From assembly GCF_003171515.1 (NCBI RefSeq), contig NC_089395.1, positions 2,790,001 through 2,854,000 of the forward strand: 64,000 nucleotides of DNA, in the 5' to 3' direction. Of this stretch, positions 15,016-17,169 are shown in pieces. The DNA comes from Pyrenophora tritici-repentis (taxonomy: Eukaryota; Ascomycota; Dothideomycetes; Pleosporales; Pleosporaceae). The notes under the pieces were generated by a model that was given only the letters and a program-made list of their open reading frames with translations, did no database searches and was not told the origin of the DNA. How positions within the stretch are numbered: position 1 is the first letter of the stretch; each line of letters starts with the position of its first letter. Both the position numbers and the translations under genes were made by a program.

Positions 15016-15460
15016 ATGTCCACCAAATCCACCCCAACCCTCACCCTAACCGGTGCGCGCCTCGCCCTCGCAGCCGCCGAAAAGCGCGCACTCGAAATCG
15101 GAATCCCTATGAATATCGCCATCGTAGACGCGTCGTGCCACCTCCTCGCCTTTGCGCGCATGGAAGGCGCAAAAATAACGTCCATCAACACGGCCATCGA
15201 CAAGGCCTTTACCGCGGCAGGACACCGCGTGCCAACGTCGGTTTACAAAGAGAATGTGTGGCCGGGCGGACCTGCGTACGGCATTAACCACAGTAACGGG
15301 GGCCGCTTTATGACGATTGGCGGGGGTGTGCCGATTATGGAGGGGGGCGTTGTTGTGGGCGCGATTGGGTGTAGTACGGGGTTGCCGAGTCAGGATGAGG
15401 ATGTTGCGAAGAGGGGGGGTTGAGGCTGTGGAGAAGGGGTTTGGGAGGGCGAAGTTGTGA
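15016..15460 (+). CDS. GlcG/HbpS (haem-degrading domain) family protein, C-terminus shifted by a G-run
   Basis: An intronless frame from the ATG at 15016 encodes one GlcG/HbpS domain (PF03928): LTLTGARLALAAAEKRALEIG, then MNIAIVDASCHLLAFARMEGA, INTAIDKAFTAAG, and the glycine-rich GGRFMTIGGGVPI and VVVGAIGCSTGLPSQDEDVAK. The family binds haem or small ligands and often accompanies redox or glycolate genes; its fungal role is unknown. As read, the frame stops at 15421-15423 after 135 residues. The G7 run at 15413-15419 is one base longer than needed: with six G the frame continues with a typical C-terminal helix (VEAVEKGFGRAKL) to a stop at 15458-15460, giving about 147 residues. This is either a sequencing error or a very recent frameshift. 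Confidence 0.8.
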
Positions 15461-15687: not shown

Positions 15688-17088
15688 CTAAGATGGCTTC
15701 TGGCACTGCGAATAGTAGTCATCAACCTTGATGCACAACAAGCCCTGAACACACGCCGTTGATCCCTGCCAAGTTAGTCCACCACACTGATCGTACAGCT
15801 GGACTGGTCCTGTAGCTGCCGGCGCAGAAGGCCTCGTCGTAGTCGTACGTCTCGTGCGAGTTGGCAGTGCAGGACGAGTAGTAGACGTTGGCTTGGGTGT
15901 GTTTTGTGGTGGCGAGGTAGTGGAGGTTTTCTGAGTTGCGGTGGGAGGCTGGCATTGAGAATACCCTATTGCATTACACGTTAGTCCATGGAAGACTAAT
16001 TGTGCACCCAGCGAAGTAACTACTTACATTCATCGACGCGTACACATACGGAATCCTTACATCTTGTAGGTCCTGTCCAGCCGTTGCCTCCGCATTGGTC
16101 GTAGGGAAGACCAATTGTAGGCGTAGCGCTAGCTGCTGTCGTCGTTGTAGGAGTTGTCCGTGTACTGGCTGGATCCGCAAGACAATAGTACGAGTTCTCG
16201 TCGACGTATGTGCATACGGTACCTCCCACACAGCGTGTAGGTCCCTTGTAAGATTTTCCGCCGCATTGGCCGCCTGGCTGTACGGTACCAGAAGACAAGG
16301 GCGCAGACGTCGTTGGAGTAGGCGTAGGCGTGTTCTTTCCTGGAAGTGGGTCGTCGTTACGTCGGCATCCAGATACAGAAGATAGAGAGCCTGGACACTT
16401 TGTCTTTTCCCAAGTTATGCTTGGGTTGTCTGCGCCGCGGAACCAGTCGAAGCGCCAGTAGCATCCAGCTTGTAGGTTGGTGGGAAGGGCATCGCAGTCA
16501 TCGCGATGGGCGACGCCGCCGTAGTCTTGGCCCCATATGTCCTGGCTAGAATATTGTTTGGTACAGCCCTTGGTTGAGCCTTGTCCGCCACCTGGGATGG
16601 CGATGTTGAATTGGTCGTCTCCGAGGTCGTCGCCTGTGCTGGTCACTTGAACGATCATCTTCTTGCCATTGACGGGACCGGACGTGAACGTCAGCCTGCG
16701 GAGATGTTAGTTTTTAGCTCTAACATAAGGGATTGGAGTCATACGAGTAGCAAGAGCAGCACCAAGCACTCTCGTTCGAAGCTGCGAGATTGACGGCTGC
16801 AAAGCCATAGGCTAGATCGTTACTCGCAGCCCAAGGGCTGAGGTCTGAGCACTCGAACGATCCACCTCCGCTATCGCACCCATCACGTCTGTTGTAGTTG
16901 TCGAGAAGATTATCACTCGCGTCGCAGGTCAAGACTGGCTTATCGACGAGGGCTTTACCGGGCCACGAGCAGGAGTTCTTGCAGCATGACCACTGACGAG
17001 TAGTGGTTCCAGTGCCTTGTATCGCGCTTCCGATACCGTAGGCACCTGTGAACAGGGTAGAAATGAATACTGTGAAGAAGAAAAGCAT
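15688..17088 (-). CDS. Secreted GH45-family protein with three CBM1 modules, catalytic aspartates replaced
   Basis: Three exons, 16745-17088, 16028-16695 and 15688-15965 (introns 49 and 62 nt), give 429 residues. There is a signal peptide (about 1-18), a GH45 domain to about residue 227 and three cellulose-binding CBM1 modules at about 258-287, 315-343 and 398-427, joined by Thr/Pro/Ser linkers. GH45 landmarks are clear: the Cys-rich start, WCCSCYSLTFTSGPVNGKK, IPGGGQG, GCYWRFDWF and CRRNDD. In Humicola insolens Cel45A the motif TRYWDCC holds the catalytic base Asp10 and HFDLNIPGGG holds the acid Asp121. Here these read TRQWSCC (Ser34) and QFNIAIPGGG (Asn145), so both catalytic carboxylates and Tyr8 are changed, while the Asp114 equivalent remains. 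The protein should be secreted and bind cellulose but is unlikely to hydrolyse it by the GH45 mechanism. The first CBM1 is atypical (Tyr instead of the first Trp). There is no frame defect, so it is retained as a coding gene. Confidence 0.92.
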
Positions 17089-17155: not shown

Positions 17156-17169
17156 GAGTATATATACTC
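17156..17169 (-). promoter_or_regulatory. Palindromic TATA element of the GH45-family gene
   Basis: GAGTATATATACTC is a perfect 14-bp palindrome about 70 bases upstream of the ATG at 17088, a normal distance for a fungal TATA box. Confidence 0.5.

Follow-up and report, generated by a model that had tools for sequence, protein, structure and literature searches.

The 64,000-nucleotide stretch of the Pyrenophora tritici-repentis genome analyzed here (contig NC_089395.1, positions 2,790,001 to 2,854,000; referred to below as the window) contains a gene for a GH45 protein with CBM1 modules, in which both catalytic aspartates of the family are replaced. The product is very probably inactive as a hydrolase, judging from its sequence. 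Since at least one of the two catalytic losses is common to related fungi, the gene has probably been retained for a non-cleaving role in cellulose handling and is not in decay.

The window protein was compared with GH45 proteins of known structure using phmmer alignments to 5glx, 5gly, 1hd5, 4eng, and 2eng, and all five alignments were collinear. In the alignments to 2eng (Humicola insolens Cel45A) and 1hd5, the motif TRQWSCC lies opposite TRYWDCC, placing Ser34 at the position of the catalytic base, Asp10, and Gln32 at that of Tyr8. The motif QFNIAIPGGG lies opposite HFDLNIPGGG, placing Asn145 at the position of the catalytic acid, Asp121. No aspartate is found at either catalytic position, and the replacements of the catalytic pair and of Tyr8 described in the initial annotation are the ones given by the solved structures. 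The equivalent of Asp114 is retained as Asp138. Misalignment as a cause of the missing aspartates is ruled out by the collinear alignments and the fold.

The gene lies on the minus strand (17088-15688), starts with an ATG at 17088, ends with a stop codon at 15688, and encodes 429 amino acids in three exons. Exon 1 (16745..17088) encodes a signal-like N-terminus and the first half of the GH45 domain, including Gln32, Ser34, and Ala98 (the Ala74 position of Cel45A). A GT-AG intron of 49 nt (16696..16744) separates it from exon 2 (16028..16695), which encodes the remaining half of the GH45 domain (with Asn145), a linker, the first CBM1 module, whose binding face is divergent, and most of the second. 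The second GT-AG intron (15966..16027, 62 nt) splits CBM1 module 2, the end of which is encoded by exon 3 (15688..15965), together with a Pro/Thr-rich linker, CBM1 module 3, and the stop codon. The Pfam profile Glyco_hydro_45 was matched at 1.4e-65 (221.6 bits) by residues 27-226, corresponding to profile positions 2-214 of 214, and CBM_1 was matched at 4.1e-29 in three stretches. The complete PF02015 domain and the Cel45A-type fold assign the protein to the Cel45A-type GH45 sequence family. The gene model and Pfam thus agree with the earlier description of an intact gene with a full GH45 domain and three CBM1 modules; its signal peptide is predicted from N-terminal hydropathy alone. Among the matches listed, the closest was P0001 from P. 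teres f. maculata (98% over residues 1-240).

For comparative analysis, 257 rows (254 database proteins and the 3 GH45 genes of the genome) were aligned, and the exclusion of 9 fragments left 248. The rows are the nearest relatives of the queries, taken from the best 120 matches per list, and not a random GH45 sample; some orthologue models are partial or faulty, with P0003, P0005, and P0012, for example, flagged as partial. In a canonical set of 173 rows, Asp10 and Asp121 are both present in every row. Among the 248 rows, Asp10 is absent solely in a clade of 18 rows formed by the window protein and 17 orthologues, where position 10 is Ser in 17 rows and Thr in one, and where Tyr8 is likewise absent from every row (Gly in 15, Gln in 3). 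Asp121 is retained in 13 of the 18 rows, and the other 5 have Asn; these five come from Pyrenophora (two), Alternaria, Parastagonospora, and a member of Phaeosphaeriaceae. The initial annotation had described the gene as maintained, and no orthologue with normal Asp at both sites was found. Isolated decay or a sequencing error was rejected, because all 17 orthologues share the Asp10 loss. We take Pyrenophora, Alternaria, and Parastagonospora to be members of Pleosporaceae or Phaeosphaeriaceae; Pleosporineae includes both families in the NCBI taxonomy. Of five clade members whose taxonomy was looked up, four are Pleosporales and one, Zopfia, is Dothideomycetes incertae sedis. Two acidic residues are specific to the clade: Asp69, present in 18/18 rows, and position 142, which is Asp in 15/17 and Glu in 1/17.

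Six exon-level GH45 matches were found in the genome (40.9 Mb, 41 contigs) and were read as three genes, only one of which has the catalytic pair. The remaining gene, here called the C5-type paralogue (G000:C5:2047948-2048563, locus L008), matches a P. tritici-repentis “endoglucanase 1 precursor” (P0167) at 100% identity along its entire length, and this genome's copy has no CBM1. It represents a C5 set of 57 rows, defined by the residues at catalytic positions 10 and 121: Asp10 is present in all 57, and Asp121 is replaced by Ser (45 rows), Thr (11), or Ala (1). A hydrophobic C-terminal tail resembling a glycosylphosphatidylinositol (GPI) signal, as judged by hydropathy only, is present in 50 of the 57 C5 rows versus none of the 191 other aligned proteins, and five of the seven C5 rows without it resemble truncated models. 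The Ala74 position is Ala in 173/173 canonical rows and Gly in 57/57 C5 rows and 15/18 rows of the window clade; the window protein is among the three clade rows that have Ala. According to passages of PMC6509783, loss of activity in two beetle GH45s is accompanied by an Ala74 to Gly change. In planta expressed sequence tags are described for a P. tritici-repentis GH45, PTRG_04829, in passages of PMC3538342 that do not identify it with any one of the three genes. In a 2014 GH45 survey (PMC3997829), most amplified sequences had both Asp residues, and one Alternaria and one Leptosphaeria sequence were oddly placed.

A careful tree was built from 60 of the 248 rows (18 from the window clade, 10 from the C5 set, and 32 canonical) after the removal of four trait columns. 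The window clade and the C5 rows each occupied one side of a branch with support of 100/100. The five Asn121 rows formed a nested group (97/87), such that position 121 requires one change inside the clade. Both clades were also recovered in a quick tree of 87 rows (22 C5), in which support for the Asn121 group was 91, below its star. In these trees, a single nested change of Asp121 in a clade that lacks Asp10 indicates that the base was lost before the acid: the former was already gone in the ancestor shared by the whole clade, and the latter disappeared afterwards in a single sublineage. In the careful tree, the window clade was joined to GH45s of Agaricomycetes (Tulasnella, Exidia, Pleurotus; P0011, P0019, P0024, P0051, P0120) with support of 97/93, hinting at a transfer or a long-branch effect. 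No transfer is claimed, because the alternative grouping with canonical Pleosporales GH45s was not rejected (p-AU 0.246) and because the stem of the clade is long. Forcing the window clade and the C5 set into one clade gave a marginal result (p-AU 0.0445).

The claim of three CBM1 modules held as to their number, but the first of them lacks the usual aromatic face. At the positions of Tyr5, Tyr31, and Tyr32, names that we take from the Cel7A CBM1, module 1 of the window protein has Gly, Asn, and Ser, i.e., no aromatic triad. The aromatics are absent from module 1 in 18/18 clade rows, with Gly at the first position, Asn, Asp, or Glu at the second, and Ser, Thr, His, or Ala at the third. Because this altered face is clade-wide, module 1 may serve as a spacer or bind a different ligand. 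In the window protein, the triad expected of a cellulose-binding CBM1 is retained by modules 2 and 3. Three CBM1 modules were parsed in 8 of the 18 rows (the window protein and seven database models), and one or two in the other 10. Several of the rows with few modules are taken for gene-model errors at the intron within module 2. The public models P0001 (Pyrenophora teres), P0002 (Alternaria), and P0014 (Sporormia) end or frameshift near this intron, so that the third CBM1 is hidden.

Identity over the GH45 domain between P. tritici-repentis and Alternaria is 85.1% for this gene and 80.2% for the intact paralogue; the corresponding values are 73.2% and 78.7% for Zopfia, and 72.3% and 75.7% for Westerdykella. 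A fourth comparison, paired by family name only, gave 82.1% and 81.7%. The pace of change thus appears to be about that of the active paralogue, with this gene more conserved in one genus pair and less in two. Canonical rows have 67 positions with at least 95% invariance, and at 62 of these the majority residue is unchanged in the window clade; 11 of the 14 domain cysteines are invariant in its 18 rows, with the other three absent only where models have deletions. Identity levels and framework retention together argue for constraint on the GH45 domain.

The explanation that we prefer, with about even confidence, is that the window protein is a secreted GH45 pseudo-endoglucanase that acts as a non-hydrolytic, CBM1-anchored accessory binding cellulose or another glucan. 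After its presumed secretion, the CBM1 modules would hold the protein to cellulose fibrils, and the GH45 cleft would still seat single glucan chains, with no cutting. Chains would be locally disordered or held open, which would aid cellulases, among them the intact endoglucanase. The initial annotation had proposed a non-hydrolytic job, possibly in the expansin sense. The replacement of both Asp residues in a kept clade is in line with the former, while the latter is weakened for the window protein. Expansins and loosenins have a GH45-related barrel without Asp10 and act on cellulose non-hydrolytically, and an Asp at the Asp121 position is required for expansin action, according to passages of PMC9888185. 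This position, Asp82 in BsEXLX1, is Asn145 in the window protein and Asp in 13/18 clade rows. Because the Asp needed by expansins is lost and the fold is of the Cel45A type, the expansin label fits the window protein poorly, and is a better fit for the 13 members that keep Asp121.

Several points weigh against an inert accessory protein. The retention of Asp121 in 13 of the 18 rows means that the ancestral protein may not have been inert. Two of the three genus comparisons show lower conservation for this gene than for the intact paralogue, and only one or two CBM1s were parsed in 10 of the 18 clade rows. GH45 subfamily C is described as cleaving cellulose without Asp10 (passages of PMC5829257), and Asp69 and the acid at position 142 could in principle be catalytic replacements. 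Finally, boosting or loosening of cellulose is not favored over masking or a decoy role by the present data.

A decoy or immune-facing protein, which we consider unlikely, would mimic GH45/CBM1 enzymes and absorb plant CBM1-interacting proteins or glucanase inhibitors, thereby shielding active enzymes. P. tritici-repentis is a wheat pathogen, and many plant pathogens belong to the Asn121 sublineage. However, the clade also includes the saprotrophs Westerdykella, Lentithecium, Lindgomyces, and Sporormia, so plant immunity is not expected to be the ancestral role. Good precedents exist for such a decoy. Passages of PMC8960721 describe PsXLP1, an inactive GH12 decoy of Phytophthora sojae, which is likewise a dead relative beside an active one but belongs to another family and carries a C-terminal deletion; its decoy role is demonstrated, whereas here such a role is suggested by analogy. 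CBM1 enzymes are bound and inhibited by rice OsRMC (PMC9521807), and R. solani EG1, a GH45, is reported to trigger cell death in a catalytically inactive form as well.

It is quite unlikely that the ancestral form was a lyase or loosener, its base-less, acid-keeping members acting like lytic transglycosylases or expansins, with only the Asn145 sublineage wholly inert. Besides the retained Asp121, Thr30, which we take to be the equivalent of the expansin partner Thr, is invariant in all 18 rows. The window protein, having lost its Asp, would not be covered, and the fold appears to be that of Cel45A and not of an expansin. Passages of PMC9888185 bear on both sides: simulations of a Cel45A base mutant, as cited there, point to a possible non-hydrolytic, transglycosylase-like reaction, but loosenin-like proteins that keep this Asp had no lytic activity.

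A relaxed remnant, i.e., a slowly decaying GH45 domain serving as a mere scaffold for CBM1s, is decidedly unlikely. The secondary loss of Asp121, the variation at position 8 (Gly or Gln), and the greater conservation of the intact paralogue in two genus comparisons would suit it; the near-equal pace of change, the invariant cysteines, and a change at Asp121 that occurred once and is nested speak against it. A cryptic hydrolase using relocated carboxylates (e.g., Asp69 and Asp142) or an unconventional mechanism, perhaps on another glucan, is very unlikely: the two clade-specific acidic positions and the activity of subfamily C without Asp10 are in its favor, but Tyr8, Asp10, and Asp121 are all lost in the window protein, whereas subfamily C retains the acid (passages of PMC5829257).

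The predicted model of P0001 has a mean pLDDT of 68.3 and a pTM of 0.55; pLDDT is about 52-69 in residues 151-180, too low for the lid region to be interpreted. A TATA-like element (17161..17166, minus strand), which begins 78 bp before the ATG, is a possible promoter element, found by a pattern match without control. Some matches to XlnR/CreA-type motifs upstream, also without control, were not used. Of 10 scanned neighboring open reading frames (ORFs), five were matched, to Mit_KHE1, a cullin, an HbpS-like protein, and, in two cases, a TRPY1/YVC1-like channel, and five had no match. The haem-degrading HbpS-like ORF (15016-15423, plus strand, 4.6e-38) and the GH45 gene are arranged tail to tail. 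No carbohydrate-active enzyme was present among the 10 ORFs, taken from an intron-blind list scanned in part, and a cluster of such enzymes around the gene was rejected within that scope.

The window protein differs from Cel45A-type subfamily A endoglucanases (Humicola insolens 2ENG, Thielavia terrestris 5GLY, and Neurospora crassa 6MVJ) in the replacement of both Asp residues and Tyr8 and in its three CBM1s. GH45 pseudoenzymes as such are already known from leaf beetles: LDE9 and DVI4 likewise miss a catalytic Asp, and passages of PMC6509783 show no activity for them. These are single genes of beetle families, whereas in the fungi the missing base is common to a whole clade with several CBM1s. 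The C5-type GH45 of Pleosporales, found in the same genome, is likewise conserved without one catalytic Asp but differs in keeping Asp10, losing Asp121, having a GPI-like tail, and forming a separate clade among the treed rows. None of the titles and abstract openings listed, from a mainly open-access literature and in several cases the first hits of longer lists (20 of 634, 20 of 57, 20 of 28, and 12 of 22), names the window clade. The apparent novelty lies in a fungal clade united by loss of the base, its architecture with multiple CBM1s, the two losses in succession, and the presence alongside it, in one genome, of a second kind that lacks the acid.

The barrel common to GH45 endoglucanases and expansins raises the question of how a cutting enzyme turns into a non-cutting wall factor. 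On one framework, the window clade and its paralogues supply natural proteins that have both catalytic Asp residues, one of them, or none. Because only one of the three GH45 genes here has the catalytic pair, cellulase counts that include every PF02015 protein are too high. It is possible, if doubtful, that glucan-handling proteins were derived from cellulases more than once in these fungi, by different routes: a base-loss lineage with three CBM1s that would act on plant cellulose non-hydrolytically (perhaps in a transglycosylase- or expansin-like manner), one sublineage of which is also acid-less, and a second, surface-anchored lineage that is acid-less only. If so, living intermediates would open the path from a cellulase to an expansin-like protein to stepwise testing.
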